Assembly (NCBI GenBank): GCA_004194705.1
Contig: SADC01000365.1
Span: forward strand, 27,646-91,645
Direction: 5' to 3'
From: Ditylenchus dipsaci
Taxonomy: Eukaryota > Nematoda > Chromadorea > Rhabditida > Anguinidae
DNA: 64,000 bases
The notes beneath the pieces are model-generated. The model was not told the origin of the DNA. It made no database searches and worked only from the letters and a program-made list of their open reading frames with translations. A program made the position numbers and the translations under genes. This document shows, piece by piece, positions 20,591-58,673 of the stretch (within the stretch, counting starts at the first letter, position 1; each line of letters starts with the position of its first letter).

Positions 20591-20815
20591 GGCGACCGGA
20601 CAATCATCTTTTTTTGAGAAATTTGTCGCGCGACAATTTTTTCTTTTTGAAAATTTTGTCGCGCGACATTCTTCCGTTTATCAAATTTTGTCGCGCGACA
20701 TTCCTCTTTTTTTGAGAATTTGGTCGCGCGACATTCGTCTTTTTTTGAAAATTTTGTCACGCGACATTCGTCTTTTTTTCTGCATTTTTTCGCGCGACAT
20801 TTCTTATTTTTGTCT
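20591..20815. repeat. Left TIR array of the outer MULE
   Basis: Six to seven tandem units with the core TTTGTCGCGCGACATT. The core is itself a perfect 10-bp palindrome, a plausible transposase-binding site repeated along the end. The inverted array is at about 26090-26309. Confidence 0.85.
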
Positions 20816-20854
20816 TTTTTATTTTGGTCTGTAGTATATTACTAAATATTAAAC

Positions 20855-22989
20855 GGGGAAAACTTATTCTTGTCACCGAAAGACTGATTATTGTCACCGA
20901 AAAACTTATTTTTGTCACCGAAAAAAGTTGTCACCGAAAGACTGATTGTTGTCACCGAAAAACTGATTGTTGTCACCAAAAAACTGATTGTTGTCACCGA
21001 AAAACTGATTCTTGTCACCGGTTTCTTTTATCTCCTATTCTTGTTCATGAATAATATTTTTCGTTCTCTTCACCACTTGCAATATAGTGTCAATATTTTT
21101 AATATGTACTGCATGTTTTGAAGAAAAATTCACTGATATGTTTACAGAAAGATGACGCTTATATCAGTGGATAAGAATTTGAGAGAAATTACGAAAAAGC
21201 GGCAAGGCGTGAGGCCACTGGAATATAAGCTCACGTGCCAGAAATTCTAATGGGAGACGGTGATCAAGCAATTTCGACAGGTTTATTCCACTTCTGTAAT
21301 GACCTTGTTCTAATAATAAAAATTTTTTAATAGCCGCCGAAAATATTTGGCCGGGAATCAAGCGTGGGATGTGCAAAGCTCACATGAAGATGAACCTGAG
21401 AAAGAAGCTAGGACAAAAAGCCTTTAACCGAGAAAATCCAGTGGCAGGTAAGCAGATCAGCAGCGATGTCCGACTTCTCGAGCAAGCTTCTTCCACAAAA
21501 GAATTTCTGATAGGTAAAGCAGGATTTCACTTGTTTATTGATCTTTTCATCGTGATTTCAGCCTCTGCTTTTTGCAACAAGAGTGGTGAAGCCGTTATGC
21601 TGGTCAACTAGAAGTTCTCAAGGTATGCAATTATTTCGTGAACCAGTGGATTCTCTCTACTCTGAATGGGTGGTACGAAGGCTTCTCTAATAAGGTCTCT
21701 CAGAACAACGGTTTGGAAAGCCGTTGTTAAGCCGAAACGGGCTGCTAAAAAGAATCACATTCCGCAAGAAGCTGAGTCTAAGTGATTTCTTCAGCACAAT
21801 GGAGTCAACTTTGAATCTGTGGAGTGCCAGACCGGAAGAGCAGGTGCGATTTATAAGTTCTGTGAATAAACACCATATTTATTTTCTGCTTCAGAATGTT
21901 GCTGCACGTCCAACAGTTACACCTGCTCTCTAACGTGATGCATTTATTTTCAAAACAAGGGATCGACCAATTCAGCAGGTAGCCGGCACCGAGATCTATA
22001 TTTTGCAGACTTCTGATTGTGAGCCAGATGAAATGGTGAGCATGTTTTCAGAACTGTGTAACTCAACCTTTGATGATTGGAGTCGGTAACTTCATGTAAA
22101 GTTTGTGAGAACTTGTGCTTACAGATTCTATTTTAGATACAAGGAGATTAAAGAAAGTATCTGCATGATTCAGCCATCAGCCATTTGGGAAGACTTCTAC
22201 TGCTGCAGCTGCTTAGAAGGCATTAAAAAACGACTGTGTCCTCATTCAGTGATGGTAATGTGCGAGAAAAGAATTCTAGTCTACCCGCCAGATGCGATCT
22301 CAATGAACTTGGCACAGAAGAGAAAGTCTGGAAGACCGAAGTTGGCCGGCCCTGCTCTCTCAATGAACTAAATCTACAAGTACTATTTTTTCATCTCATT
22401 ATGTTATGTTGGTATTAGAGAAAAATAAATTGGAAGATCATAAATAGTGTTTCTAGAATTTACGTAAAGACTAGTTCGAGTGTTTATGAGCATATATCCC
22501 TCCGCCGATATCCCCCTAGCAGATATCTCCTGAGAATACATTCCTCAGCCTATATCCAACATATTTTTCAAACTTTTTTACAGTTCGGAAAACACGCTAA
22601 CATACGCTGGCTTACCTGAGCTTGAGCCTGCGTTGAAAAAAAAGCGTGGAGATATATGTTAAATGGATCTGCAAGGGCATATCTATCCAGTACCGTTTGA
22701 GTAAGCATTCAAAGAGTTCATAATTTTTTCAAGAGTTAGCACTAAGCTATTAAGAAGTATGACAAGTGTAAACAAAAAAACAAAAAATATTAATCATGAA
22801 CAAGAATAGGAGATAAAAGAAACCGGTGACAAGAATCAGTTTTTCGGTGACAACAATCAGTCTTTCGGTGACAACAATCAGTTTTTCGGTGACAACAATC
22901 AGTCTTTCGGTGACAACTTTTTTCGGTGACAAAAATAAGTTTTTCGGTGACAATAATCAGTCTTTCGGTGACAAGAATAAGTTTTCCCC
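20855..22989 (+). mobile_element. Deleted MULE with TTGTCACCGAAAAACTGA TIR arrays, TSD ATATTAAAC
   Basis: Ends GGGGAAAACTTATTCTTGTC and inverse. The 9-bp duplication ATATTAAAC lies at 20846-20854 and 22990-22998. TIRs (20855-21030 and 22815-22989) are arrays of 21-bp units CCGAAAAACTGATTGTTGTCA. It contains only the C-terminal half of a transposase, so it is probably non-autonomous. It is nested in the outer MULE. Confidence 0.88.
21141..22371 (+). pseudogene. MULE transposase, C-terminal half with SWIM zinc finger
   Basis: Fragments in order: a GDGDQAIS segment near 21250, where the second catalytic Asp of MULE transposases usually lies; PGIKRGMCKAHMKMNL with the Cys/His pair that follows it; NGWYEGFSNKVSQNNGLES near 21665-21715, the catalytic-Glu region; and a SWIM finger (CSC...CPH) near 22200-22240, ending YPPDAISM...KRKSGRPK before the stop. 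The N-terminal DNA-binding region and first catalytic Asp are absent, and the frame changes several times around introns and stops. SWIM fingers at this position are a family hallmark. Confidence 0.7.
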
Positions 22990-23066
22990 ATATTAAACAA
23001 TGTACAATAATAACAATAATAAATCTATAATAAAATTATATGTTTTATGCATAAAAATAACATCAC

Positions 23067-26018
23067 TCAATCAAAAATTGACAACACATTAATATCCGGC
23101 ATCAAATATAAGATGTTTTCCTCGTCGTCTTCATCCTCTTCAAATTCATCGATGTCCGGATTAGCGCCCTTCGGGTAACATAACGAGTCTTGGATTGATC
23201 GCAAGAAGGCTAATAATTCATCATCGGAGGCTGGTTCTGTTTGATTTTTCCTCATTTCATTCCATTCGATGACAGCTGAGTGAATTTGCGACGCTACTGT
23301 CATATACCCCCCCAAAAAAGCTACTGTAATATACCCCCCCCCCAAAAATCGGACCTACTGTCATATACCCCCCCAAAAACCGACTTTTTTGGGAGTGTCT
23401 AAAAACCATTTTTATGCAATAATTTTGCCATAAAGGGACCAGAAAAGCAATTTAAATGGGATTGCGGGCTGTATTGGGAGGGGAAGGGAATAATACAGGG
23501 GCCACTTTCTTTTAGCTGCTTTACCATGTTTTTCAACTCGGGCCGTGGCAAAAATAGACTCTATATGCATTTTATGATCAAGTGTACTTCTCGGAATCAT
23601 GTCTAAGGTAAGTGCGTGCGCGCATCTCTAACTCTCAAGCCCCCTGCGCCCCCTTCGGGGGCGCAGGGGCTTGGAGTTGAGATGCGCACACCCACATACC
23701 TTAGACACAAATCACTCGAAAGTGACTCTGGATGCATGAAAAAGCATGCATACCAGAGTTATTTATGCGGTAGGCCCCAGTATCCAAAACTATGTTCAAC
23801 ATCTTTATTTTTTCGCCGAAGAGCTTTTCCCCTCGTTCTACAAGGCCGGGCCAGAGGCCCAGCATCCAAAAATTCAGCATAGCACCCAAAAAGTGCTATG
23901 CCTGTGAGTAAACCCGCGAGGTCCACCCCGCTGATGGGCTTGGTCCATGAAAAGTACTTATACTTATGCCTGCACCACAAGTTCCTGGGTTTGAAAGCAC
24001 CTTTAGACGCTTAGAGAATTATTACTCTAAGGATCCCAACCATCTCGAGAAGTGGCCCCTGTATTATTCCCTTCCCATCCCAATACAGCCCGCAATCCCA
24101 TTTAAATTGCTTTTCTGGTCCTTTTATGGCGAAATTATTGTGTAAAAATGGTTTTTGACCATCCCTAAAAAAGTCGGTTTTTGGGGGGGGTATATGACAG
24201 TAGGTCGATTTTTGGGGGGGGGGTATATTACAGTAGCGCTTTTTGGGGGGGTATATTACAGTAGCGCCGAATTTGCTGCTCCGCTTCCAGTTGCTTTGCT
24301 CGCACAATTCGAAAAGGTTCCTCGAGTTTTCGCTCATGTCTTAGATTATATGTTACTTTTCATACGAAACTTAAACAACAACCTGATAATTGCGTGACGA
24401 ACGGCCTCTTCTTCGTCCATCTGATGTCGAATTACCTTGCTTCGATCAGGTTTGCCACTGCCAGGAAAGTGACTCTTGTATTCTTTATTCCATGCTTCGA
24501 CGGCGTTGTTGGTAACTGGCCTCTGTTTGACGACATGATGATTAACATTCCAAAGATCAATACTGTACAGAGGCTTTCTTGGCTGCGCATCGTCTCCACG
24601 GTAAATGTACGTTGTCCTGATGTACTTGAAAAACGCTAAATTATATGTATAATTTTTTAAACCAAATACAAATCATACCTGTAACTCTCTGATCATCTGC
24701 ATCCGAAGCAATTCTATTATGAACCATTCCCTCGTATTCTCTGATCAGCGCATGGAAACCAGAAGGCACATTTTTGCAAGGTAAATAAGCAAGCTTTGAA
24801 AATAGAATAATCCAATCCCTCAATTCCCCATTGACATAGAAGCGATCCATTCCGTGTTTTTTTGCCCATTGCTGTTCAGCCTGCGACAAATGAAATATAC
24901 ATCGTATTGCAACCGCACTTGGAAAGATCGACAGCACAACATTCGAAGGACCAGATTCAAAGTCTAAGATTGAGGGTTATGTTGTAAATAAAATGTATAT
25001 TTACCAGAAACGAAAGCCTCAACACAATATTCAATAGCTGGCAAATAAAAAAACTCCTTGAAGACTCGACGGAACGTTTTTTCACTTTTAGACCGCATCC
25101 AGCTGAATCCAATAACGCAGAATTTGCCGTCAATCATTCCATGCAGTGTAAAATACTAAGACGCTTTAAATTAACACTGATAATATAAATAAATTATACC
25201 TGATAGAATCCTCTTGGAGTCTTCTTATAGGTCGCGTCAAAAGCAATTACTTTGGCTCGTTTCAAGAGGTCATGCCCAAAATCCGACATCCATACAACAA
25301 TCCACGGTAAAGCTAAGCATAACTGTATTAGTTTAAATGTATTAGTTTAAAGAATACATGGTTCTGTTAGACGAGAGTCAAATCGAAGGAATCGATTTCC
25401 ATCATGAGTTAATTTCGCTGCATCAGGAATTACCATATCCTCTACATTCCTCGAATCCACTGTAGCCATATTTACTTTATACTTTTTCCGCTGTATTTGT
25501 CTTGCAATACTCGCATCTTTTGGCAACACAGAAAGAACATCAGGACCAGCTCCTCGTTTCATGGATCGACGCAATGACTTTGTCTTTGTTGACGGCGATG
25601 CTTCAGCAATTCTCAGGCCTTCTTTCATTCGCAGCTTTGTCTGAAATTTAAACACTAAAAGCGTCAAAAATTACAATATTACCTCCATTTGGTAAGGCTT
25701 CGCATCATGGTTGTGATTCTTGGTAACGAAAAAGTAGTTCCGTCCTGACCGAGTAAAACCTTTTCCCTTGCACTTCTTCTTTCCTTTCGAGTGATGGCAG
25801 TAGAAAAAATCAACACCGACGTTTCGGGAACTCTCCTTAAAATAACAATAAAATTGTAAACGACATATTAATTTACTCACAGTTCTGTGTGTGTAGGAAA
25901 AGTTATTTGCCCAAATGATCCGCTTTCCGGTATTGCTGCTATCCTGCCGATCAATATTCTGTTTGATCAAAAAGCTGAGTTCATCTTCCGGATTTTCCGC
26001 TTCAGAATCGCTTGACAT
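23067..26018 (-). pseudogene. MULE transposase with FLYWCH-like finger, split by an insertion
   Basis: Start at 26018 (MSSDSEAENPEDELSF). The next exon has a FLYWCH-like finger (FYCHHSKGKKKCKGKGF...NHNHD, about 25690-25800). Then come a basic segment (25350-25640), FDATYKKTPRGFY with the first catalytic Asp (about 25200-25250), the DFE region, RCIFHLSQA (about 24880-24910), and TNNAVEAWN with the Glu (about 24490-24510). The frame runs RKLEEPFRIVRAKQLEAEQQ into the 980-bp element at 24268 and resumes at 23289 in the same frame, ending in an acidic tail and stop 23067-23069. Apart from the insertion and introns it looks nearly intact, so the family may have been active recently. Confidence 0.75.
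23290..24268. mobile_element. 980-bp GACGCTACTGT-family element, copy 1, TSD GAATTTGC
   Basis: Ends GACGCTACTGTCATATACCC and, read inward from the right, GGCGCTACTGTAATATACCC. TSD GAATTTGC at 23282-23289 and 24269-24276. Each end repeats a CTACTGT(C/A)ATATACCCCCCC unit three times. Longer TIRs extend to the GCCATAAA-GGGGCCACTT segment. The centre has a GC-rich hairpin (about 23638-23672). No transposase. It is inserted in the C-terminal coding region of the FLYWCH MULE; removing it restores the frame. Confidence 0.9.
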
Positions 26019-26089
26019 TTTAGGAACACTGAAATTACCACGTGCAGAATGCAAAACAACAAAAATATAACTCAAAAGAATAATACATG

Positions 26090-26309
26090 TCGTGCGGCAA
26101 AGTTTACAAAAAAAGACGAATGTCGCGCGACAAAATTCTGAAAAAAAGACGAATGTCGCGAGACAAAATTAAAAAAAAAAGACGAATGTCGCGCGACAAT
26201 CGTTTCAAAACGGAAGAATGTCGCCCGACAATCGTGCCGCGACAAAATTCGAAAAAAAGACGAATGTCGCGCGACGAAATTTTCAAAAAGAGACGAATGT
26301 CCGGTTGCC
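26090..26309. repeat. Right TIR array of the outer MULE
   Basis: Inverted counterpart of 20591-20815, with seven or so units AAAAAAGACGAATGTCGCG(CG)AC. Some units are shortened or carry CGCCCGAC, so the array has diverged unit by unit. Confidence 0.85.
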
Positions 26310-27369: not shown

Positions 27370-27699
27370 GAGAGTGGCCCAGAAAAATTCGGCCACCTTA
27401 AAAATTGAAGTACGTAACCCCTTACCTGGTCGGTTTCCGATTTTCGGGTGGCAAGCCCTGGGAAACCCCCTCAACAATCGCCAATACAATACAAGAGACC
27501 TGTTTTTAATCACACAAACAAAACAACACCGAAAATATAACATGAGACACGGGTAGTAAACGTGCAATAACTTTTATTTAAAATACATCCCACCTTCTTC
27601 TTCATGATCCGGCTCGATTCTTGTTCTCGCCAGTTTCTTCAAAGCATCGCGTAGCATCTCGAATAATGTCCCTCTTGACGCTAAAAAGCTTTGCCATAC

Positions 27700-28818
27700 G
27701 GGACACGGACGTTTCCCTGTAAAACCGTTTCCCTGTAAGGCCGTTTCCCTGTAAGCCGTTTCCCTGTAAGCCGTTTCCCTGTAAGGGACGTTTCCCTGTA
27801 AGGAACGACAAGGAACTGTAGCGTGTAGGAAAATTTTGTAGACTCAAATTTGGATGAGGGATCGAACTATATCTGAAATAATACCCCTTTGGGTATCCAA
27901 ATGGTAGTAGGAAAGTATTATTACCCAGAAAGTAGCACTCAGATCATAGTGGGGTGAGATCAAGAGGTATCCATGTGATGGTACCAGTGTCGAGATACAC
28001 AGGTAGTGGGCTTAATTGTTAGTACTTGTTGGTAGTACTAGTTGGTGGCATCCACATGGTAGATCTCAGGCGGCACCCACATGGTGGTACCCAGTTACAG
28101 TAGAACCTCGTTATAAGATACACCCAATATAAGATACACCTCGTTATAAGATACACCTGGGTCCGGTCCCAAGTTAAATAACTCCAGTCAAATTACCCCC
28201 TATATAAGATACACCTCGTTATAAGATACAGCTGGGGTCGGTCCCTGGGTGTATCTTATAACGAGGTTCGACTGTAGTTGAACTTAGATAAGCGCAACAT
28301 ACCAACTTACACCCCTCGATTTTAATACTCTTTGGAGGGGGATGCACTTATACCATCGTACTCGAGTCATTCGCATGGTGATACCCAGTTGATCGTGTTA
28401 TCCAGGTGGTGGTACGGAGGATTTAGTATAATAGACCTGTTTTAGTGCGCAAAAGACTATTTGATAAGGTGTATCAGACTGTATTGGCAGGCGGATCACT
28501 ACTTGGGTAATACCTAAGCACTTCAGTTACTGAAGTTCAGTACCACCACAACTAGTACTTCCACGTACTTCCTTCGCTTTCCTTTCGGGCGTTGCATGTT
28601 ACACTGAAAATTACATGAAAACGTGAAAAAAGAAGCGCGGATTAAAAATAAATTGAAGTCGCGTTCTATTTGGCGAGAAACTGTTTTTACAGGAAAACGT
28701 CCCTTACAGGGAAACGGCCTACAGGGAAACGGCTTACAGGGAAACGGCTTACAGGGAAACGGCTTACAGGGAAACGGCTTTACAGGGAAACGGTTTTACA
28801 GGGAAACGTCGCGTACCC
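27700..28818. mobile_element. TIR-array element with CCGTTTCCCTGTAAG units, TSD TTGCCATAC
   Basis: Ends GGGACACGGACGTTTCCCTG and, inward from the right, GGGTACGCGACGTTTCCCTG. The 9-bp duplication TTGCCATAC is at 27691-27699 and 28819-28827. Arrays of 15-17 bp units CCGTTTCCCTGTAAG lie at 27710-27800 and 28690-28810. It sits within a mariner transposase fragment whose frame resumes across the TSD. The interior is non-coding, includes a degenerate GGTGGTACCC-type minisatellite (27880-28095), and hosts a TA MITE (28098-28274). Confidence 0.9.
28098..28274. mobile_element. MITE, TA duplication, TATAAGATACACC family
   Basis: Left end CAGTAGAACCTCGTTATAAG and right end CTTATAACGAGGTTCGACTG, flanked by TA at 28096-28097 and 28275-28276. 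177 bp, internal TATAAGATACACC repeats. Nested in the 27700-28818 element. Confidence 0.85.
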
Positions 28819-29113
28819 TTGCCATACCGCTGACCGAGATCATATTTTGCCGTAGGAAAACCATCGAGGCGCGCAGATCTTGCTTCCTGATTTGAGCCAT
28901 TACCTGAAATGCTAATTTCATAACGCGAGTTTTGATGCAATAAGAGCCACAAAAAATTGTTGAAGTCTCGTCAAAAAAATGGCGTAACAAAACCGTAAAA
29001 TCAAGACGAATAAGAACAAAGAGCACAAGAGTAAGACAAACTGCTTCAAAAATTATAAGAATAGCACATGTTCGAATTTTCTCAAAGTGGCCGCATTTTT
29101 TTGGGCCACCATG

Positions 29114-30420: not shown

Positions 30421-31139
30421 CGATTTTCGCAATCCCTTATTTTCCTGGGTATCTCTCTCCGAGGAATCTCCCTCCGAAGTGTTCTTCACCTATGTGATTG
30501 ATATTTTCCGATATTTTTTCTATAAAGTGCACACGTTTGGACCTGTTTCGATTTATGGTAAATATAATTGGCGGGGACAACCGTTGTCGGAGACGGCAAT
30601 GGCCTTTTAACAAGGGATTTATCTAGTTACTGTACTTTGTCAACTTTTACGACTAACCAGGAAACCTCAAGTAGTGTCTTTTCTTAAAGGACCATCGCCG
30701 TTGATGACAATGGCAATGTAGAGTTTTTGAATTGGCGGGAACAGCCGAAAATGCGGAAAATGTTTTGGTGGTATTTAATTTTGGCCATAAAATACTGAAA
30801 ATTAGCCATAAACTCGTCGTGGCCATAAAATACTGAATTTTGGCCATAAACTTTTGAATTTTGGCCATAAATTTTTGAATTTTGGCCATAAACTTTTGAA
30901 TTTTGACTATAAACTCGAATTTGGCCATAAAATGCTGAATTTTGGCCATAAATTATTGGGTATTGGCCATAAACTCGGTTTGGCTCTAGGTCAATTGAAT
31001 TCCGCCACCAGTTTTGCTGCGTTATAAAACTGTCTTACACTTTTCATCCTTGCAAATTTGCATGTCTTCCACATCAATATTAGAATTCTGTGTGTTTAGA
31101 ATTATCAAGCTGAACGAACGACAATGAAGTTGTGCCGTG

Positions 31140-31800
31140 ATGTCGGCTCTCCTGATGCCTTCTTCAGTGGTTGCTTGCGCTTTGCTACCTGGACTCGCTA
31201 TTCTAGGTGAGTGTCTTTGATTGACTGGTGATTCATGTTCTGACTAGGTCTACTTTTCAGTTGACTAACAACATGTGCTCTACAGGGTGTCCCACAAAAA
31301 CTGGTGCAAAAAAAATTCGTCCAAGGTTTCCCCTCCCGCCGGATTGGGCTTTTTCGTGTTTTAACGTCTCTTGGACGATGTTGAAAGATAGGAAACATTG
31401 GAAGATTCTGAAACACATACGGAAATGACAAGAAATGCGACAAAAAGAATTATAAAAAATTTAACGAAAATTCAAAAATTGCACCAGTTTTTGTGGGACA
31501 CCCTGTACGCTCCGATTGCATCAACTGCAGTGCTTTTCAAAAAAAGTTTATTCAATTACAGGCGATTGCTTCAACTATCTCAATGGCCGTGGTTATGACT
31601 TGGCTTTCCGTTGATCAGTGAGTGCTTAAGTGACAAACTTGTTCTATTAACCCATTCTGTATTACAGTGTGCTCTTTCGGAAAAGTCTTCAGCCGAATTG
31701 ACTTCCAGCAGAAACAACAGCAATGAAAATGGAGTATTGTTTGTATATCACAAGTGTATTTCGATGTTGTGTAATGATCCGAATAAAATTGTTTAGTACA
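31140..31800 (+). pseudogene. Possible spliced gene fragment inside the 30767-33826 element
   Basis: The open segment at 31140-31205 (MSALLMPSSVVACALLPGLA, hydrophobic) is followed by a good donor (GTGAGT at about 31206) and TTTTCAG (about 31255). Further acceptor-like sites precede 31560 and 31670, and AATAAA lies near 31783. One segment, AIASTISMAVVMTWLSVD, is again hydrophobic. I do not recognise the protein, frames do not join cleanly, and a MITE interrupts it. Either captured host gene parts (Pack-MULE style) or remains of an element gene. Confidence 0.3.
31283..31505. mobile_element. Mariner-like MITE, CAGGGTGTCCC termini, TA duplication
   Basis: Left CAGGGTGTCCCACAAAAACT and right AGTTTTTGTGGGACACCCTG are perfectly inverted, with TA at 31281-31282 and 31506-31507. 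223 bp, non-coding. A longer relative is at 52298-53083. Confidence 0.88.
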
Positions 31801-32806
31801 TCAGGTTTTTTGAGCATACCGTGTTTGTTGTTTCTTCCCGTGGATAATCTTATACTTGTGCAAAGTCAACAGGAGTGGCGAGCTCTCTGTTGGCTTATTA
31901 GTAAATGATTGAAAAAATTGGACGGTCACCATCTGCTCTCCCTGCGCTTGTGGTCGGCCGTCTACCGTACCTTTCTTTGTTATAAATTTTCGGCCGGCTG
32001 TCTCGGTCTTTTTGCACTGCACCAGCTGTATTCCAACCCTGGCTAAATGACGTGGTTAATGTGTCTGCGGGAGTGACTTTATTAGAGTTTTTCCTGGAGT
32101 AGTGAAGGATAGGTGAATTTCACAGAAAAGAGACCCAGACTGTGATTCGGGTAACTTTGCTGAAAAATGCATTTTAAAAAAATGCTTAAGGGAAGTTTCT
32201 GGGACTTTTTTCAAATAAAAAAATCTCTGAAAGGTTTCCAGGTCCGAAAAACCAACCCACGATTGTTGGGCATCCTCTAAGTGGCTCTTGAGATCTACTT
32301 ACTTGAATTCGTGATATTTACCTGAGAAACAAGAAAGTAGGTGTAAAGAAAGGTTTGTAAAAAACGAAACCTGGTTTCAACTTATCAACACCTGAGAAAC
32401 TGAGGTAGTCTATAATTTGAGGTCGACCACCTCGGAGTGGATACCTACCCAAGTACTAATTAGATATTGAGATTATCAATATATATAACATCATTTTGAT
32501 CATAACAAGCCATTTCAGTACAAAGTTTTAAGTTTAATACCATAGTTTGTGTGACATTGGAGGTGATAATACTTTGGTGGGCCGATTGACTTGTAGACCA
32601 ATGACGTAGAGCCAAGTCGAGTTCAATATTTTATGGCCAAAATCTGATGATTTACGGCCACAATTCGGTATATCAAGGCCAAATTTAAGTTTATGGCCAG
32701 AATTCAAAAGTTTATGGCCAAAATTAAATAATTTATGGCCATAATTCAGTATTTTATGGCCACGTCGAGTTTATGGCCAAAATTAAATATTTTATGGCCA
32801 ATTTTC

Positions 32807-33787
32807 GACGCTACTGTCATATACCCCCCAAAAAAGCTACTGTAATATACCCCCCCCCAAAATCGGACCTACTGTCATATACCCCCCCCAAAAACCGACT
32901 TTTTTAGGAGTGTCTAAAAACCATTTTTATGCAATAATTTTGCCATAAAAGGTCCAGAAAAGCAATTAAAAAGGGATTATGGGCTGTATTGGGAGGGAAG
33001 GGAATAATACAGGGGCCACTTTTTTTTAGCTGCTTTACCATGTTTTTCAACTCGGCCGTGGCAAAAATAGACTCTATATGCATTTTATGATCAAGTGTAC
33101 TTCTCGGAATCATGTCTAAGGTAAGTGCGTGCGCGCATCTCTAACTCTCAAGCCCCTGCGCCCCCTTCGGGGCGCAGGGGGCTTGGGGGCTTGGAGTTGA
33201 GATGCGCACACCCACATACCTTAGACACAAATCACTCGAAAGCGACTCTGGATGCATGAAAAAACATGCATACCAGAGTTATTTATGCGGTAGGCCCAGT
33301 ATTCAAAACTATGTTCAACATCTTTATTTTTTCGCCGAAGAGCATTTCCCTCGTTCTATAAGGCCAGGCCAGAGGCCCAGCATCCAAAAATTCAGCCTAG
33401 CACTCAAAAAGTGCTAGGGCAAGGTGTAAACCCGCGGGTCCCACCCCGCTGATCCGCTTGGTCCATGAAAAGTACTCATACTTATGCCTGCGCCACAAGT
33501 TCCTGGGTTTGAAAGTACTCTTAGACGCTTAGAGAATTAGTACTCTAAGGATACCAACCATCTCGAGAAGTGGCCCCTGTATTATTCCCTTCCCCTCCCA
33601 ACACAGCCCGCAATCCCATTTAATTGCTTTTCTGGTCCTTTTATGGCGAAATTATTGTGTAAAAATGGTTTTTGACCATCCCTAAAAAAGTCGGTTTTTG
33701 GGGGGGGTATATGACAGTAGGTCGATTTTTGGGGGGGGGGTATATTACAGTAGCGCTTTTTGGGGGGGGGTATATTACAGTAGCGCC
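32807..33787. mobile_element. 980-bp GACGCTACTGT-family element, copy 2, TSD CAATTTTC
   Basis: Closely similar along its length to 23290-24268 (termini, array of CTACTGT-ATATACCCCCC units, GC-rich central hairpin near 33150-33185). TSD CAATTTTC at 32799-32806 and 33788-33795. It is inserted in the right TIR array of the 30767-33826 element, so it is younger than that insertion. Confidence 0.9.
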
Positions 33788-33835
33788 CAATTTTCAGTAT
33801 TTTATGGCCAGTTTTAAATATTACCCAAATGTTTT

Positions 33836-45300: not shown

Positions 45301-45702
45301 TCTTTATATGCACCAATCAGATAATTGAAAGAACGAAAAAATTCAACATGAGAAGTTAACACCAAGTAGAAAAATCCAATTCGGTGAAATCCTCGGGTCC
45401 GCGACAATTCGCCTCCGGGACAATTCGCCTCCGGGACAATTCGCCTCCGGGCCGATTCGCCTCCCGGGACAATTCGCCTCCAGGGACAATTCGCCTCCAG
45501 GACAATTCGCCTCCGGGCCGATTCGCCTCCCGGGACAATTCGCCTCCGGTACAAAAAAAGTAGTAGAAGTAATCTTTGAAAAGTCACAGTCAACATACCA
45601 CATTCAAACCCTTATTTTCGACGTGAAATTGTGTGGTAAATCCTGTTTGATAGGACCGAAACTGATTTCACCCAGCCGAACCCAAAAACCCAGGGTAGGT
45701 AC

Positions 45703-47257
45703 CAGGGCTGGAACGGAAGACAAAAAAAGTCGGAACAAAAATCGGAACCGGAAGTAGAAAATTCTCAAAACCGGAAGTCGGAAATCGGAAGAAAAAAACT
45801 GCCGGAAATCGGAAATCGGAAGACGGAAATCGGAAGAAATTCAAAAATTTCCTAGTGCCAAAATTTAATGTTGTACACATGCATCGGTTCGTACTCATTT
45901 GGGCGCCCTCATTTGGGCGCCATTATTATATAGTGAATTTCAACCTCAACAGTGATATTTACCTCCAGCCTCAGTGTTACAGATCCCCATTCAATGGTCC
46001 ACTTTCAATCCAAATCTAGGGTTGAGTACCACCTGGACAGGTTGATATCCAGGTAACTTCAGAGTAGGGGTTTATTTTGAGTAGGGGTTTTTCACCCAAA
46101 TGTCCTGAACGGTCAAACGTTCGTCTTTTTATATTTAAATTACGGTAAAAAATGAAATGTGCACCCAGGTGGATTCGAACCAGCAACCTCGGCGGTGGAT
46201 GTCCAAGTGGTCGTCTACTTGGATCAAAAAATTTTCACGTTTGTGGATTCCAAGATTATTTTTCTGAACTAATTCGAGCATGCTGAAGATGGTTGGACAG
46301 TGGTAAAATCACGTTTTATCGAGAAATTTTTGAGTTATTGCTAATTCTTGATTTATCAAAATCAATCGTTAGCAATAACTCGAAAATTTCTCGATAAAAG
46401 CGTGATTTTACCATTGTCAAACCATCTTAAGAAAAATTGTTTCGAAACCCGAAAAAGCATTTAAAAAAATTTGATCCGAGTGGACGACCACTTGGTCTAA
46501 ATTGGGGTGGGTTGCTGCGGAGCTTCATATACACGTCAGCGAGGTTGCTGGTTCGAGTCAATCTGAGTGTAAACTTTATTTTTCATCTCCATTTTAACTA
46601 GCTAAATGAGTTCTAAGTATATAGTCGCAAGTTAAGTCGTTTATCGTTCATGATTTAAGTAATAAAGTAACACTTCACACCGAGGATCGGGGGAGAGGGA
46701 GATAATTTTGACACCGGTGTCAAAATTATTCAAATAGATACTTTTTTAAGTCACGTACCTACCTCGGCACGAGCTTTTTTTTAGTAAAGTTGCTGTTTGG
46801 GTATCATTAAACCATGTTAAACGCTTGGTTTTGGGTACAATACAATGGCTTTAAATTTTTTTGACAAAATCTAAAATTTTTGGATTGTGGAGCTGGATAC
46901 TCTTTTTAGGCAGGTACCCGATGGTTCACATGCTACCTCGGAAGTTAGCATAGCCTTTTCAGACTATTTAAATAATTTTAAAATCACTATATAGTAATGG
47001 CGCCCAAATGAGGTCGCCCAAACAAGGGCGCCAAATGAGTTTCACCCAAATGAGTGTGTACGCTCCGCAAAGCTGTAACTTCCATTTCCTTGCAAGACAT
47101 TTCTGCAAAAAATACTTCGAAAATATTTTTCAAGTGAACTATTCTCTTCCGAAATTTCCGAAATTCGCCCTATTTTTTCGGAAATCGGAAAACGGAAGAG
47201 AAAAAGTGCCGGAAATCGGAAATCGGAAGACGGAAATCGGAATTCCGTTCCACCCTG
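45703..47257. mobile_element. Non-autonomous hAT element, TSD GTAGGTAC
   Basis: Ends CAGGGCTGGAACGGAA and inverse TTCCGTTCCACCCTG, flanked by GTAGGTAC at 45695-45702 and 47258-47265. Subterminal arrays of CGGAAATCGGAA(G) are at 45715-45840 and 47175-47245. CAGGG-GGAAC with an 8-bp TSD fits hAT. The interior contains an inverted TCATTTGGGCGCC pair (45896-45925 and 46998-47062), probably another nested element. Confidence 0.85.
45990..46570. repeat. Hairpin repeat with tRNA-like B boxes, copy 2
   Basis: Same plan as 3225-3900: minus B box (GGATTCGAACC read on plus, about 46172), a long palindrome (46205-46500, including CAGTGGTAAAATCACG and complement), and a plus-strand B box GGTTCGAGTC near 46550. 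It lies inside the hAT element. Confidence 0.6.
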
Positions 47258-48399
47258 GTAGGTACCTTCTGGTCAGGTGTATGTTCACGTGGACGGCCTG
47301 AAAAATTGTAATATTTTCGTCTTGTAAAGAACTTTGTCAGTTTATCTAAATGTTTTTCTATGATCCAACTTTAGTTCTCATGGATAATCCATGCACTAAC
47401 TAAACCATGTGGTCGTCCACTTGGATCGAAAGAAAGGCAGCTAAAGTTGGTTATAGCCTGATAAATTTTGAAGTCAAATAATTGTTGTCTCTATTATCTG
47501 AGCAGGGTGAGAATGCCTTTATGAACAGGGAGCAATTGTCCATGTTATACAGGTTTCCGGTGAATACGTGGTATAAAATTCAATTTAAAAAAGAGATGCA
47601 ACACCAAACACACGACGTGGGTTTCCACTTGGTTCATATGAGTGTCCATTTGGTCAAATGTTTGTCAGTTTATCTAAACCATCTAAACCTGAGATATTTT
47701 ATATAACTAGCTGTTTTGATGAACGTATCTAAAAGAGTAACTTTAGTGGCTGAAATTTTTTTGACTAGCTGGAGACCTCCATGATCCAAGTGGACCATCT
47801 AAATGAACCATGTGGACAACAACATGAGAAAATTAGGGCGATCCGGTGATGGATTGACAGAAAAGTTCAAAAAATGATTCGAATACAACTACAACATTAC
47901 CTTAACTGCAAAAATAAAAACTAAGAATAAGCTTATTGCTCGTGGAGTGAACTCACAGACTGAGAAGGAAATAAAAAATGTAACTGGAGGCGAATTGTCC
48001 CGGGAGGCGAATTGTCCCGGAGGCGAATTGTCCTGGAGGCGAATTGTCCTGGAGGCGAATTGTCCCGGGAGGCGAATCGGCCCGGAGGCGAATTGTCCTG
48101 GAGGCGAATTGTCCGTGTCCCGAAATCCTCAATAGGACTATACCAGTACTTTTCGGTAGTATCCTGGAACTGACGTTTTTTCCCAATTTTAATTTACATA
48201 CTCATTTGCAACCTTACACTCAAAATGTAGCCCTGCTTCTTGCCGTCATTTTCAGCATACGGTTGTATAAAATCATGTGAATTGAAATCGCGAAAAATCT
48301 CAGTTCCTAGTTCCTAGTACGCATCAATTTGGCTGGTTCCTTTAACTTTGGGAGTCATTGCCGAAAATCGCAAAATTGAGGCAATTGATGACAACAAAT

Positions 48400-48545: not shown

Positions 48546-49814
48546 TTAACTGAATTGACACCATTCTTAAAAATTTTCTTGTAGAACTTAGTACTGAAGA
48601 CGAGCACCTTAGCAAAAAAACTGATGTAATTCAAAGAAATCTCTAAAGTACTAACCTTTGGCAAGTTACAGTCAGACATTGAGCGATGCCTGATAAGCTC
48701 CAGATAAAAGTTAACGAGGTTATCATTGATCCAACGGTCAGGCTGTAGTCTGCTCATGTCTTCTATGGTCAAAGTTATTCTGAAGCGGCTCGTAATCAAT
48801 TTCTCATGAGTTGGTTAGTGACTTGCTCACTCGCAAGCTACTTTTCTAATTGATTGAGATGATTAATTTTTTTCTTGTAGTATTGGAAGTATACCCGCAT
48901 AATTGTTCGTTCTGTTCTCGCCATTCTCGATTCTTTCAACGAGATTCCACGGGTCTATTGGAAAACGGGCTGTCTTGCGAATACCATCTGGCTGCATCAA
49001 CCCTAAAACTGAAATATTGACCAATAACACAAGAAACAAATAAATTACCAAGGTAGTATTTTTCAAACTAATCCAGAATCGGGCTTAAACATACAGGAAG
49101 ATTTTTTCTAAGAGATACGAAGCATACATTGAGTCGCAAGATTGGCACACATGATAAAGCCACAATTTTACAACATTTAAGACTACGGTTAATTTTGTAA
49201 TAAATTTGGTAAACTGACTTCATGAGCGAACTGCGCATCAATGTGGTACTGTGCAGAAAGTCCTCCTTGCTCAAGATGCTTGTACATATTAGAACACGGA
49301 TGCCAATAGCAGCCATCAATAAAAACCTCCTCCCATTCTCCACGTGCAGCATTTTGAATAGCCAATTCATAATCGCAAAAAAATCCTTAAAAATTGAGCT
49401 GAGGAAACACTTCATGTAGCATTTTGAAGAACATTCGGTAACTCACAGCTGTTTTGTTTGGAAGTAAAGCGTTTGCGATAGAGAACACAAAGTCATTTAT
49501 TTTTGTGAGGACTACGAACACTTACATCAAAGAATTCTAATGTTCCAACATGACGTTAAAAATGAAAATCTGTTCGAACAATGGCGGTGCAAGGGAATGG
49601 GACATTTCACCGCGGCGACATTTCACCGCCTACGACATTTCACCGCCGCGACATTTCACCGCGAGACATTTCACCGCCTACGACATTTCACTACCGGACA
49701 TTTCACCGCCTGCGACATTTCACCGCCGTTGTGAAAATTACTTATCCTAGCCCCTTATAAGCTCTGAGAAACATTTTTTTCTGTTTTATAATAATTTTTT
49801 CAGTCAGAAATTTG

Positions 49815-50660
49815 TAAATGGATGACATGCAGAAGACCGTACGCTACTTTATCAAACAGAGGCTCAAAAAAGTACGTACATGAAGGAAGGATGTACGTCA
49901 AGAATCGCAATCTCATTATTGTAGCGAACGGGAGAAATATTGGCAAATGTTCGAAATAAAGTTAGAATCTCCGGAATTCAAGACGAGCTGCCCAAAGTCA
50001 AAGCTAGAAAGCGAGGTATCCAAAGAGCCAGAACAGATTCCGAAGACTGCAAGCCTCCTGCTATTTCTACTTTCTTGGAGGTATTTCACATGTAAATGGT
50101 ATTTATTATCGAAATTCTCTGCTACAGGTCTTCGTGGTTCTTGCCAAGAGAAATGAATACGTGTTTCCTATTGCAACTGCTTTGCTTCCAAATAAAAGAG
50201 CCATCACATATAGGATATTCTTTCAAATGCTGCATCAAGTGTTTCCTCAGCTTAACCCTCAAGGAATCTCTTGTGACTATGAGTTAGTCATTCAGAATGC
50301 AGCACGTGGAGAATGGGAAGACGTTTCGATTGATGGTTGTTATTGGCACCTCTGCTCTAACCTATATAAGCATCTTGAAAAAGAAGGTCTTTCTGTTCGG
50401 TATGATAGCGATGTCCAGTTTTCTCACGAGGTACGTCATTAAAACTTTAACAGTAAGTTATCACCTAATTTCAGTGTCGCAAAATTGTAGCGTTAGCATG
50501 TGTTCCCATTTTGCACCTTGATGAGTGCTTTGCATCACTGAAAAAGAATCTTCCAGTCTCTTTGAGTTCAATTCTTGATTGTTTCGAGAACTACTATCTT
50601 GGTAATCACTATCTCTTTTGTGATATGTTTTTTCTTTGAATTTAGGTCCGATGCAACCGA
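49815..50660 (+). pseudogene. MULE transposase, internally deleted
   Basis: Exons: MDDMQKTVRYFIKQRLKK; a FLYWCH-like remnant (GRMYVKNRNLIIVANGR, about 49895); SGIQDELPKVKARKRGIQRA; then after an intron (about 50079-50127) VFVVLAKRNEYVFPIATALL...FFQMLHQVFPQ, IDGCYWHLCSNLYKHLEKEG and CRKIVALACVPILHLDECFA, PVSLSSILDCFENYYLG. Compared with the older minus-strand copy, the block with the first catalytic Asp (VDGTFK) is absent, so this copy is probably not active by itself. Confidence 0.65.
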
Positions 50661-51457
50661 ATGGAATTCGTAGATTGACTTGACCAAGAAGGACCTCAAC
50701 AGACTTAAGCCAGGTTGTTGGATCAATGACAATCTCGTCAACTTTTATTTGGAGCTCATAAAACACCGTTCGATATTAGATTCCTATCTACCAAAGGTTA
50801 TTTTCTGCAGTTATTGTGAAATTCATGAAATTTTGAGCAGGTGACCGTCTACTAAATTCTATCAAAAGCTCTCAAGAAACCGGTCATCTTCTGTGAAAGG
50901 ATGGAATGAGAAAGAAGATATTTTTGCGTGTGACGTTTTATTGATTCCTATCCACAGAGCGGATCATTGGGCACTTGTGGTATATATTTTTTGTCGATTT
51001 TAAGCCTGCGTAAAACATTTTTCTCAGGTAGTCAGGATGAAAAAGGAAAAGCTGCTATATTACGACTCATTGCATGGCGATGGTAGCAGTTGTCTCACGC
51101 TGATCAAGTAAAAGTCTTAGAATTTTGTTTGGAATCGTTCTCTATTTTTTGTAGAGAGTATTTGCAAGTCGAGGCTTCGATGTATCAGAATTCAACACTG
51201 GATCCGATAAACTGGCTTGGTCTGAACGACAAGGTATTTAAGGTATTTCAAAAATGATACTGGCTATGTTCGTTGCAGAGTGTGCCACGGCAGACAAATG
51301 GTTGTGATTGCAGTGTCTTCGTCTGCCAATTTGCTGAGAGCGCTTCCCTTGAGATTCGCCCTTCATTCCAGCAGGAGGATATGGAACACATTCGGAAGGA
51401 AATGTTTCAAGAATTACAAGTTGGAAAGCTGTCAAGAAAAAAGGAAATTAGTTAAAT
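50661..51457 (+). CDS. C48 (Ulp1/SENP-type) cysteine protease of the MULE
   Basis: A SUMO-protease-like domain in about five exons: IDLTKKDLNRLKPGCWINDN and LVNFYLELIKHRS; STKFYQKLSRN...EDIFACDVLLIP; IHRADHWALV with the catalytic His (about 50955); LLYYDSLHGDG with the Asp (about 51060); EYLQVEASMYQNSTLDPINW; and QTNGCDCSVFVCQFAE with the catalytic Cys (about 51310), stop near 51455-51457. All three catalytic residues are present. C48 domains ride on some MULEs (Kaonashi in plants) and other transposons; their role there is unknown. It could be made as one protein with the transposase or separately; I see no clear start codon for the domain. Confidence 0.75.
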
Positions 51458-52297
51458 CTATTAGTGTTTTTGCTATTACTCTCATTACAATTAATAAAGA
51501 AATTGTCATTCGAAGGTCTTGTTGAAAGGTCCAAGGTGGGTGAGGTGTGGAATGTGTCATAGATAAAAGAGGTCTTGTAACGTTGATCAATAGGTCATTG
51601 TTATCGTAATACTCGTATTGAGCACAAAAATTGTTTTTATTTTTGACTAAAATTGATACTTGTTGATTCGTTTGATACCAGTTGATCCGGACAGATAACC
51701 ATATAGGATGGAACCCTGGACGGGAATGGAACCCTTTAATACAGCATAAATGGTGGTTCATTATAGCGGCGGTGAAATGTCGCAGGCGGTGAAATGTCGC
51801 AGGCGGTGAAATGTCCCGCGGTGAAATGTCGCGACGGTGAAATGCCGTAGGCGGTGAAATGTCGCCGCGGTGAAGTGTCGTATACCGCGGTGCAATCTTG
51901 AATGTCCCATCGACTAATATTTTTTCGACCATTCCCATCCACTGAATGTAGCATTTTCGTCCGAAGATAAAAACTCTTCCTCTTACGGTTTTGTCAACAC
52001 CTGAATCTGCTATCAGCCATTCATCTGGTTCACGTCCATGGATAGCATCATAAAAACGATATGACTGGGGAACGATGATGCTCTAAATCAGACAGGGTTT
52101 CCAAAACGATGCATGAAAAGAGTACCTCTAAAGTTTTCGGAACAGGAGGCGGCTCGCAATCATCTCAATCTGTTCTGACCCGCCTAATTCCCTTTTTTCT
52201 GATTTTAACTTGTGCCATAGCATCTTGGACTCCTAAAGTTTTTGCCTGATTACGGACTTGTGCTAAGATCTCCCTGTTCGCTGTGATACGATTTGTA

Positions 52298-53745: not shown

Positions 53746-53799
53746 GCTTCACATGCCTTCTTCGCAGCATTTTTCACTAGAAATATCAATTATTATACG

Positions 53800-55174: not shown

Positions 55175-55254
55175 TTACGAACAGATCAAAGAAAAATCTG
55201 AATTTTTTTTCACGATTCGATAAGTCGAGGACCTCCACTTGGAGCGTGTGTATA

Positions 55255-55413
55255 CAGTCAACTCCCGATAATCCGTCACTCTCGATAATCCGTCACCTTC
55301 GTGACACTTTGTTTGGTTTTGCCTTAAATAAATAAGGCTAATCCGTCACTCTTGATTATCCGTCACCCCACGGCCGTCACCCCAAGGGGTGACGGATTAT
55401 CGAGAGTTGACTG
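55255..55413. mobile_element. MITE, TA duplication, GATAATCCGTCAC family
   Basis: Left end CAGTCAACTCCCGATAATCC, right end GGATTATCGAGAGTTGACTG, TA at 55253-55254 and 55414-55415. 159 bp with GATAATCCGTCAC repeats. Confidence 0.88.
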
Positions 55414-55942
55414 TATCTCCAAAGGTGCATAGGCGTTTAGCTACTTTTGTGATAAATGTCACTGAAATGGCCAAACGCACCAACACCTCTCCAAATCTCC
55501 AAAAATTTTAAAAGATGTTTTTTTTAATTTTGCAATAGAGTCTGTTACCTCAATTTTTCGGAATTTTTTCTCTCGATCCTAGATGGGTATGTCCAAGTAG
55601 CGTCAAATTCCCTTATTGACTTCTGCAAAATTACAAAAAACGTCTTTTAATTAGAAATTGAAGTGTTGTGTTAGTTAAATACGGGGAAATCTGTTTTTGT
55701 GTAAAATTTATGTAATACAAGCCACTAGCCTGAACTTGTCAAGAAACTTGGCAAAAGATTGGTTTCGGTATAGGATAGAATTCGGTTTACTAGCCCAGCT
55801 GAGAACCGAGATCTAACAAAGCGGTAAAACCAAACCCTAGATCATGCCTGTCCACCGGCTCCTGTTTTCTTCTGTTCATGGTCTAAAAACTTGTAAATCA
55901 TTTTCCTTACTTATTTTACTTTCTTTCCAGATTGCGACGAAA
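55414..55942. other. Intergenic sequence upstream of SUPT3H
   Basis: Contains an inverted pair near 55500-55560 and 55560-55650 (AAAAGATGTTTTTT / AAAAAACGTCTTTTAAT) and an ATG at 55844 that could begin a short upstream exon ending before the TTTCCAG at 55924-55930. No other gene seen. Confidence 0.4.
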
Positions 55943-58673
55943 ATGCACAAGAATTATCAGCCGGAAGATATCAGCAGCATAGAATCATGCAGTGGCCAAA
56001 CCGACTATTATAGCGAGCAGCCAGATTATCCAATTTCAGCAATAATCCGAAATAGTAAGCACTATGATATTACTGTCCACACCCAACTGTGTTTTATTTA
56101 GTGATGTTTCCTATGGTCATTATTTTGAAATTTGGACAGTGCCATGTGACTCCTATACAATCTTAGTATTTTTCAGGAGATTCTGACGAACCACTAGAAT
56201 GTTGCCGCAAATTTATGCTAGAACTGGTAAAATCTTTTTGCCTCTTAGTTTTTTCAGTCTCTTGACCTACCGTATTCTCTCTATTAGTTCCACATGTGGG
56301 ATTATTTTTCAATCGTCCGAAAATCGGAAAAATTAGGGGTCGATCTCGAGATTTTTGGTGAAATTCAAAATCTAAAGAGCCGAATCAGTAGACCTCGTGG
56401 GAGTAAAGAAAATGCAATAAACAGCTTTGTTAAATTTTTTTCTCTGAGCTGAGATACAGGTCTTCAAAGTTGAAGTGTGGGTTTAATAGAGAGTGTGGAA
56501 CTAATAGAGAGAATACGGTAGTACTTTCCAGGTCCATCAACAAATGAGAAAGCTTATTTTGAATGCTGAAGATGTCGCACGAGCCAGGAAGTGTATTGTA
56601 TTTTTAGTTGTTTGTTTGCTCACTCCTTATAGTTTTTAGTCAAAGCACCATTGGCTATGTGGAAATCTTGTTTGCTTTTAGACGTCATCCAGTATTCATC
56701 AAAAGGCTGATCCAGTACATGAGGGTATGCAGACTTTGTTCAAATATTTGTTTGAGCACTTTTTCGTTTGCAGTTGAATGACTCATTTTCCAGTTTGGCA
56801 TATTCTTTAAGTGATGCAGCACCTGAATGCAAGTTGGACGTTGGCTCAAATGCGTCGGATGAAAGGAATCAAAGGCGGGTTTATGGTTTCACTATTTAGC
56901 CTCGTGCAATCATTAGAAGCTCGAAATTTATGGTTGTAAAGTTCATTATTTCGAAAGTCAAGCTTTAGGACTACAGTCGACGCTCGATATAACCTTCCTC
57001 AAGGGACCGGCCAAAATGGGGCGTTATAACGAGCGGACCTTATATCGAGCGTCGTTTTATCGGGCACACACTGTAGTCTGGCTAAAATACGAATGTTTTC
57101 GGGACGTTACATCGAGCGTCGTAGGAACCGGGCACTTCTGTCCCGACAGATCTGTCCCGGACACTTCTGTCCCATTTCCAAATTTACTTTTAATTTGCAT
57201 ATTATCCGAAATTTAAGTTGGAAACCTGCGCAAAATCTGAGGAATAATTAACCGAGAATACCTATTGAAAAGCAGCCAGAGTGGGGCACATAGGGGAAAG
57301 CTGAGCAGGTGGTGTTACCCAGGATGAGGTATTTAGGTGGTGGCATCCAGGAGAGAGTACACAACAAGGGTTACCTAGGTGGTGGCGTCCAGGATGAGGT
57401 AACTACGTGGTGATTTTTAGGAAAGGGCTTCCAGTTGGGGGTACCCAGGGAAGAATATTCAGGAGGGGGTACTCAAGAGGTAGGTAATGAGGTGGTAGTA
57501 CGCAAGGAGTGGTCCTCATGACGTGGTACCCAGATGAGGTATACTCCGGAGAGGGTACCTAATTGTATATTATCCAGGTGGATGAGAACTAGAATGAGTA
57601 TTCGGGCGAGGGTACCCAGGTGATTGTACTCAGATAGTGGTACTTATGTAGTGATACCTAGATAGTGGTGGAAAGAAAAACTTTTATATTACCTTAAAGT
57701 CGGGATATAGTGTGTGAAGATGTCGCGGCTGGCGCTTTTCTAGTTTGTTATTGTAACGTTGTTGTACTCACAATAAAAAAATCTTCGGTTGATTATTCAT
57801 TAGATTTCGCGCAGCTTTCAAACCTTAATTTCGGACAATATGCAAATTATAAGTAAATTTGGAAATGGGACAGAAGTGTCGGCACAGAAGTGTTTGGGAC
57901 ATAACTGTCGGAACGGAAGTGTCGGGACAGAAATGTCCGAGACAGAACTGTCATGTACCCAGCGTCGTTATATCGAGCGTCCACTGTTGCACCATGAGCT
58001 TGTTTGATCTAATTTGGTGGTCAATCTCATTCTCTGGCTGATTTTTTAATGTCACCCCTTTCAAAAACATTTTTTAAGCTAGAAAACCTGCTTTTGTTAA
58101 GCCTTTCAAATCCCCTATTCTTCTTTGGTTATTAATTAACTGCCGTATTCAGGTCAAAGTCTCTCCTCGAAGCTCTGAAAGAAATGGACGTTGCCGATGA
58201 ACTCAATCAGATGCTTGAATCCACCTCACCTGATGAAACCAAGATCGAAAGAATACGGAGGATGACACTCAGAATACAGCACATGGACACGGTTGCCTAT
58301 GAAAAGTTTGCTATTGCTCGAACAACCTCATTCTGCAGTAGGAAGGGAAGAAGTTGGTTCTTGTAATTTGCTTTTTGCGAAGTTTACAACTAATTATTTT
58401 GCTTTCAGATCACAGACCTACTCAAAATACTTCCTGGAATGGCTGGGCTCACCGAACGTGGAAAATGGCATCGTCTACATCCTGAATTATTGTGCCATAG
58501 AAATTGTTGCTATTATCACGGACAGTGCACTCTTTTGCCGGGAGGAGGAAGCCAAGGGCATATTCGAAGACGAACATCCAACTCAATCATTGCAGATGAG
58601 GCATTACGAAGAAGCATTGCGAAGGAATAGGGGATATGCATTGAGAAAAGACATTTTATTTGGTCATTTCTGA
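55943..58673 (+). CDS. SUPT3H: Transcription initiation protein SPT3 homologue (SAGA subunit)
   Basis: A SAGA coactivator subunit with two histone folds in one chain; in yeast it helps place TBP. Exons: MHKNYQPEDISSIESCSGQ (55943); DEPLECCRKFMLELVHQQMR and KLILNAEDVARARK, first histone fold (to about 56600); FSQSTIGYVEILFAFRRHPV and FIKRLIQYMR (56640-56725); LNDSFSSLAYSLSDAAPECK; then after a 1.28-kb repeat-filled intron (56875-58152) SKSLLEALKEMDVADELNQM, KIERIRRMTLRIQHMDTVAY and FAIARTTSFCSR; and the second fold YSKYFLEWLG...AIEIVAIITDSALFC, ending ILFGHF, stop 58671-58673. Residue order and spacing match SPT3 (EVKQERMERAERQTRIMD region). The exact 5' start is uncertain (ATG at 55844 possible). 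Confidence 0.88.
56270..56518. mobile_element. MITE of CCGTATT type, TA duplication, in a SUPT3H intron
   Basis: Ends CCGTATTCTCTCTATTAG and inverse, TA at 56268-56269 and 56519-56520; 249 bp. The inner sequence parallels 17087-17336 (GAAAATCGGAAAAATT-like segment; AGATTTTTGGTG). Confidence 0.82.
56974..57988. mobile_element. MITE with CAGTCGACGCTCGATATAACC end, split by a second element
   Basis: It starts after TA at 56972-56973; units CGAGCGTCGTTTTATCG repeat. The sequence is cut at AGCGTCGT by the 57123-57960 element and resumes AGCGTCGTTATATCGAGCGT, ending CCACTG near 57986 with a degraded TA. Confidence 0.65.
57123..57960. mobile_element. TIR-array element with CACTTCTGTCCC units, TSD AGCGTCGT
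   Basis: Ends (A)GGAACCGGGCACTTCTGTCC and, inward from the right, GGGTACATGACAGTTCTGTC. TSD AGCGTCGT at 57115-57122 and 57961-57968. Arrays of GGACACTTCTGTCCC-type units (57132-57178; 57865-57955), then a longer inverted region (ATTTCCAAATTTACTTTTAA / complement). The interior has degenerate GGTGGT-ACCCAGG repeats (57290-57670). No coding sequence. Confidence 0.78.

Follow-up and report, generated by a model that had tools for sequence, protein, structure and literature searches.

Mutator-like transposons of Ditylenchus dipsaci with two conserved outer ends and diverging terminal repeat arrays

Results

Array-ended elements of the window

The window analysed here is a stretch of 64,000 nucleotides from the nematode Ditylenchus dipsaci (assembly GCA_004194705.1, contig SADC01000365.1, positions 27,646 to 91,645; G000:C364:27646-91645 in our numbering), and it carries transposons of the Mutator-like (MULE) type whose ends are built from a short outer motif and inverted tandem arrays. 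Elements of the window are designated D, F, I, J and L, loci elsewhere in the genome by L and a number, and the genome searched was the assembly of 226,978,389 bases in 1,359 contigs. In agreement with the stated origin, P0002, a UniRef entry assigned to D. dipsaci, aligns to this genome in pieces, with identities of 99 and 97% for the copy on C48, 92-97% for copies on C1343 and 52% on C881; four pieces aligned to L049 reach 81-100%. A sequence-only reading had placed five MULE-like elements in the window, and we confirm all five (Table 1): perfect target-site duplications (TSDs) of 8 or 9 bp flank each of them as well as a sixth element (20855-22989) nested in D, the arrays with the units named in that reading are present and inverted on both arms at 5/5, and matches to PF10551 and to FLYWCH profiles support the MULE assignment.

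Empty sites were found for the two elements tested, I and J, and the TSDs persist there. The empty site of element J is contiguous, with a 93% match to the joined flanks of the element along 192 bases; eight further places cover the flank join in part, at 76-83%. With regard to element I, 40 of 1,201 candidate places were scored, and each of the 40 listed spans the junction of the joined flanks with a match of 94-99%, indicating that element I sits in a high-copy repeat. Beside the C48-bearing MULE element J there is an inverted stretch (49217-49536; 73% similar), and J therefore lies beside or inside another MULE.

Table 1. Coordinates of the array-ended elements in the window
Feature	Position	Strand	Remark
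TSD TTGCCATAC, element F	27691..27699 (left copy); 28819-28827 (right copy)	.	perfect
A-end GGGACACG, element F (27700-28818)	27700..27707	+	
Left array, element F	27708..27805	+	site CGTTTCCCTGTA + linker, period 15
Right array, element F	28687..28810	-	left-array unit (CGTTTCCCTGTA site) inverted
B-end GGGTACGC, element F	28811..28818	-	
TSD GAAATCCTC, element I	45386..45394 (left copy); 48122-48130 (right copy)	.	empty sites exist
B-end GGGTCCGC, element I (45395-48121)	45395..45402	+	
Left array, element I	45403..45554	+	site (C)AATTCGCCTCC, period 16
Right array, element I	47984..48113	-	left-array unit ((C)AATTCGCCTCC site) inverted
A-end GGGACACG, element I	48114..48121	-	
TSD GCGGTGCAA, element J	49584..49592 (left copy); 51887-51895 (right copy)	.	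empty site G000:C471:16756-16947
A-like outer end GGGAATGG, element J (49593-51886)	49593..49600	+	
Left array, element J	49601..49727	+	unit GACATTTCACCGCC
MULE transposase catalytic domain, element J	50116..50361	+	PF10551, 38 bits
Ulp1-type peptidase C48 exons, element J	50845..51452	+	PF02902, 28 and 37 bits
Right array, element J	51766..51879	-	unit GACATTTCACCGCC inverted
B-like outer end GGTATAC, element J	51880..51886	-	
TSD AGCGTCGT, element L (57123-57960)	57115..57122 (left copy); 57961-57968 (right copy)	.	
Left end AGGAACCGGGC and short array, element L	57123..57177	+	unit CACTTCTGTCCCGG
Right array, element L	57866..57952	-	
B-type end GGGTACAT, element L	57953..57960	-	
Element D	20591..26309	.	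symmetric ends GGCRACCGGAC, 33-bp units, TSD GTCTAAAG; FLYWCH and MULE matches below cut-offs (minus strand)

Two forms of outer end

The outer 11-mer GGGACACGGAC, found in the window at exactly two places (27700, +; 48111, -), occurs at 675 places genome-wide (338 + 337) compared with 35 (13 + 22) for the reversed control, and the outer ends are thus conserved better than chance, as the sequence-only reading had proposed. Its further assumption of one common end did not hold. Two forms can be distinguished among the outer ends: A (GGGACACG) and B (GGGTACGC/GGGTCCGC/GGGTACGT). Neither GGGACACG nor GGGTACGC is a palindrome by eye, and a single form of end was rejected. In regions that start with an A-end, the opposite end, adjoining the matching TSD, differs from it and is GGGTACGCGAC, GGGTCCGCGAC, GGGTACGTGAC, GGGTACACC or a close variant. 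The B-end pattern GGGTMCGYGAC was found genome-wide at 941 places (control 102), GGGACACGGTC at 145 (control 26) and GGGTACATGAC at 271 (control 22). Where the two listings overlap in the genome (59 A-ends, 100 B-ends), 32 convergent A-B pairs lie within 6 kb and use 31 of the A-ends, with no convergent A-A or B-B pair within that distance; the non-convergent pairs number one A-B, one A-A and five B-B. The paired elements carry one A-end and one B-end each.

Apparent A-A elements on C118 and C122, convergent pairs further along the A list, were shown to be inverted duplications taking in the flanks. A group of GGGACACGGAC places with 'ATACTCCCGC' or similar flanks (L010, L084, L089; L039 and L054 are alike inside) has no array and was set aside as a different repeat. 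Locus L113 (G000:C122:195515-195960) is a long palindrome that ends in GGGACACGGACACGGAC and has mirrored flanks, and its group has the 11-mer without arrays. At G000:C21:19340-20500 and C160:341855-343080, convergent GGGTACATGAC ends stand about 1.2 kb apart and may represent B-B elements of the second transposase clade.

Target-site duplications were also tested at places outside the window. Among 21 regions (20 of 10 kb, and L049), 18 had a detected partner array, and the flanks agree at 8 or more of 9 bases in 12 of these 18, eight of the 12 being identical at 9/9. None of 306 mismatched flank pairs reached 8 (best 7), a control that is somewhat milder because for true pairs the best value was taken from all candidate ends of the region and five offsets, and for controls from one end and five offsets. 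Two further cases among the 21 regions, L021 and L023, were recognized by eye.

Array units

Of 100 GGGACACGGAC places listed, 81 were read. A strict rule detected an array at 60 of them, missing visible arrays in L014, L034, L047 and L060; a loose rule (at least two units) gave 66, of which L012, L023, L058, L065 and L087 are doubtful, and missed the arrays of L021, L050 and L071. The first units of the 60 strict arrays comprise 25 distinct 9-mers, which fall into 12 groups at ≤1 mismatch and three at ≤2; unit types are therefore numerous yet mostly linked by small steps. One of the 12 groups, from L033, resembles a decayed copy of another.

For the anatomy of the unit, 83 array heads were used (the 81 and those of elements F and I), in 41 of which four or more units could be chained (288 units in total). 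Around the TT core, the consensus is ≥0.90 from -3 to +8, a range in which positions +3 to +8 are inflated by the chaining rule (3/6 matches there), falling to 0.56-0.75 between +9 and +13 and to 0.76-0.83 between -8 and -4. The drop beyond +8 is not made by that rule, and linker indels add to it. The unit is a constant 12-bp site with a short loose linker, and since spacing is mostly 16 (122 cases), 17 (64) or 15 (49), the linkers measure 3-5. In 25 hand-listed unit types, all picked by their core, both T are invariant, either C or G stands at +2, and the information content is 0.18-0.76 bits at +3 to +7.

Transposases and their match to the units

The genome contains at least 115 MULE-domain places, of which 20 MULE-bearing loci were read in addition to L049, L019, J and D. 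PF10551 exceeds its cut-off in J, L105 and L049, and FLYWCH (PF04500) does so in L049 and L100. FLYWCH profile matches occur in 22 of the 24 sequences, weakly in J and not in L104 or D; no THAP domain was present among Pfam matches up to E 0.1. Homologues of the transposase exist in a mite (39%) and a firefly (35%). A tree of 23 sequences (D omitted) has strong support for 9 of its 20 inner branches, and several of its rows are long-branched.

Eleven pairs of MULE domains are at least 90% identical, and their units are identical in seven, one edit apart in three (L094 with L097, L094 with L099, L108 with L110) and five edits apart in one. Below 90% identity, units are at least three edits apart in 218 of 220 pairs. 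The unit CACTTCTGTCCCGG of element L recurs at the MULE-bearing locus L110. Unit distance and transposase distance are correlated across 22 rows (Mantel rho 0.385, p 0.0001) and, with one row per family (14), for the MULE domain (rho 0.25, p 0.016) as well as for FLYWCH (rho 0.26, p 0.011). The unit thus follows the transposase lineage, as expected under the suggestion of the sequence-only reading that the array is a specificity module. The mean FLYWCH identity is 0.43 in the 17 pairs at 70-90% MULE identity. In the main clade of 10 families, mean identity is 0.41 for FLYWCH and 0.64 for MULE; FLYWCH therefore changes faster, though it predicts the unit no better.

Of the 18 scored loci, 11 have an A-end upstream of the transposase gene (variants in L096 and L106) and seven a B-end; J, L109 and L110 have A-like ends, and L107 and L104 stand outside the scored loci. 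At least four flips of A and B relative to the gene are needed on the tree, and L098 has B upstream and A downstream, so that gene orientation and end form are not locked to each other. Inversion between the inverted arrays would give such a flipped orientation.

In the predicted model of the homologue P0011 (mean predicted local distance difference test score, pLDDT, 79.4), the catalytic part best matches the transposase of ISCth4 (IS256 family) and then Hermes, solved in complexes with end DNA. A search of solved structures with one FLYWCH exon as a single sequence gave no convincing match, and no WRKY or GCM1 chain is among the matches listed for the whole P0011 model, by which the FLYWCH part was barely probed. 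The structure of a FLYWCH finger has been solved, and FLYWCH is classed with the WRKY-GCM1 fingers; we know of no FLYWCH-DNA complex. The sequence TT[C/G]-A-[C/T]-C resembles a W-box, and WRKY-like binding by FLYWCH is kept here as a lead only.

Element D and other elements

Element D had been regarded as a similar member of the family. Its two ends both read GGC[GA]ACCGGAC, and its 33-bp unit contains the palindrome GTCGCGCGAC. Because their ends are symmetric, neither D nor the element nested in it was accepted into the A/B group, and D is a separate group, not clearly of the A/B family. The nested foldback element has symmetric ends GGGGAAAACTTATTC, units of about 21 bp and the 9-bp TSD ATATTAAAC, and it seems to be of another family. 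An inverted array-ended element at 2589-4190 has the unit TTTGCTAAGCGGTCGA, ends GGCTGTACCCCG and an apparent 8-bp TSD CCGCCCAC, and a similar array is found in L102. Three more inverted tandem-array elements, at 30777-32801, 36848-39719 and 5115-5498, have units TTGGCCATAAA, CAACTGCCGACC and TTGCCAAAACGAA, respectively, with ends that are not of the A/B type as far as seen. A repeated inverted element with ends rich in CTACTGTCATATACCCCCC is inserted in other transposons at 23368-24189 and 32850-33739, and 61251-62925 (-) holds retrotransposon pol fragments (integrase core, H2C2 finger, RNase H).

Discussion

We consider it probable, at roughly 0.7, that these elements are cut-and-paste FLYWCH-MULE transposons (Mutator-like, Phantom type) with foldback-style ends and a three-part terminus, in which array units and transposases diverge together. 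The outermost 8 bp, in form A or B, would most likely be the cleavage site of the catalytic part of the transposase. Behind this octamer the head-to-tail array of 15-17 bp units, with an identical unit on both arms, would most likely provide the binding sites of the N-terminal FLYWCH domain, most sites combining a TT[C/G] core common across families with about 5 bp downstream of it that vary from family to family. Such an array would raise the local concentration of transposase and at the same time confer family specificity. The outer ends would stay alike, being tied to a conserved catalytic domain, while units and transposases co-diverge.

Several observations weigh against this interpretation. 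The array survey covers 81 of the 675 A-end places, the chaining rule favors part of the constant site, the units of L107 and L109 are without the TT[C/G] core, and L104 is without such an array. Within 6 kb, 28 of the 59 A-ends have no partner; these may be truncated, belong to elements longer than 6 kb, or face a B-end that is mutated or of a variant form. Two convergent pairs of one and the same B-type end (C21, C160; by eye) are present in the GGGTACATGAC listing for the second transposase clade. J and L109 have units five edits apart at 91% MULE identity, both keeping CACCGCC, and in two of the 220 distant pairs, L098 and L102 each with L101 (67%), the units are one edit apart. Moreover, the MULE domain tracks unit distance better in the main clade (rho 0.49, p 0.001) than FLYWCH does (rho 0.20, p 0.11), so that FLYWCH is not singled out as the reader of the unit, and we do not regard it as a proven one.

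It is unlikely that the arrays are passive minisatellites, generated by slippage or unequal crossing-over, whose core is shared by ancestry alone and has no specific role. Repeats in foldback terminal inverted repeats (TIRs) can seed satellites, as described for Tetris (PMC4079207; this and the other papers are cited here from extracts), and the array of L029 mixes units TTGATCGAA and TTCATCGAA. Against this stand the sharp border at which the conserved 12-bp site gives way to the variable linker, the invariant TT of the listed unit types, a list chosen by that core, and the report of a 12-bp repeat with 3-4 bp spacers also in Muta1, which is mobile in yeast (PMC5225508).

The sequence-only reading had described the arrays as exchangeable, and recombination could in principle pass them as modules between elements; we find this very unlikely. 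Chimeric TIRs are present in Galileo copies of D. mojavensis (PMC3573991), the flips on the tree together with the layout of L098 indicate that parts of these elements do rearrange, and the J-L109 pair diverges in its units. Nevertheless, 10 of the 11 close MULE pairs have units within one edit, the exception shares CACCGCC, and 23 of the 25 first units join in one network at ≤2 mismatches, which fits better with stepwise divergence of the unit than with swapping of arrays. That the shared outer end reflects a general weak G-rich terminal preference of MULEs and no family signature, in line with the arthropod MULEs that mostly have G/C at their first three terminal bases (PMC13359780), is hardly credible, given exact 11-mers enriched 5.6- to 19-fold over reversed controls and ends that pair by form and orientation.

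The architecture, which the sequence-only reading had found unfamiliar, was already known, asymmetric ends included, from Tm1 of Meloidogyne and in large part from Muta1. Tm1 (Mutator/Foldback) combines outer motifs that are asymmetric with a GGA motif, tandem units of about 14 bp (CGTTTCAGTATCGC in M. hapla) with a CGTTTC/CGATTC core, TSDs of 8-10 and mostly 9 bp, and a Phantom-type transposase (PMC3169594). Like the A-B elements of D. dipsaci, it carries one of each asymmetric motif per element; aligned by eye, the reverse strand GGGTAGG of its A2 motif (CCTACCC) is near the B-end GGGTACG, and CGGATAA-GGA-CGTTTC of M. hapla parallels GGGACAC-GGA-CGTTTC here. In contrast, its A1 motif is unlike our A-end, only the core CGTTTC/GATTC of motif C is shared while the remainder differs, so that we do not file these elements as Tm1, and one unit type per species is described in the extract, whereas about a dozen unit groups stand behind one A-end here.

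Muta1-14 of Aedes aegypti likewise form several FLYWCH-MULE families in one genome (13 of 14 with a FLYWCH-MULE transposase), with a terminal motif, tandem sites and 8-9 bp TSDs (PMC5225508). The 12-bp subterminal repeats of Muta1 have spacers comparable to the linkers of 3-5 here. Its terminal motif is an imperfect palindrome, in contrast to the A- and B-ends, and the extract of PMC5225508 does not state a terminal motif common to families or asymmetric ends. Galileo (P superfamily, foldback-like) resembles our elements in its repetitive TIRs holding sites for the DNA-binding domain of the transposase (PMC3688188, PMC3573991); its THAP domain binds the TIR repeats (PMC3688188), which is the closest proof of principle for binding to an array, although Galileo has a P-type THAP transposase, longer repeats and 7-bp TSDs (PMC3688188, PMC3573991). 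Phantom MULEs share the FLYWCH and MULE domains, TSDs of 8-10 bp and a variable TIR structure, and no group with shared ends and variable arrays is described in the extract of PMC6446971. The D. dipsaci elements also belong to the foldback-type structural class, whose TIRs consist of tandem repeats. In our searches of papers on transposon ends, we found no description of a genome in which many unit types share one outer end. What appears to be new is that a single genome combines about a dozen unit groups with one shared pair of ends, that A-B pairing holds across these groups, and that unit and transposase diverge together.

In these elements, two functions that a transposon end usually combines come apart, one residing in the conserved octamer and the other in the diverging array. 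Since a single genome offers about a dozen or more related families in which to compare octamer and array, the needs of the catalytic domain become separable from what the DNA-binding domain reads. Tentatively, and with rather less than even confidence, we suggest that the families represent mutually insulated transposition systems, using the same pair of cleavage ends with different array codes of about five variable bases beside the TT[C/G] core, each code recognized by a rapidly changing FLYWCH domain of its own, and that new families arise by stepwise co-change of code and finger. If this is the case, the families would coexist without mobilizing one another, the A-B rule would imply that the synaptic complex is asymmetric, and the paired domains and arrays would constitute a ready-made key to the FLYWCH-DNA recognition code. 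FLYWCH factors also occur as host transcription factors derived from such elements (PMC12265568). The elements of D. dipsaci supply FLYWCH domains and repeat units that are probably cognate to each other, and their value lies mainly in serving as a test bed for the recognition of transposon ends.

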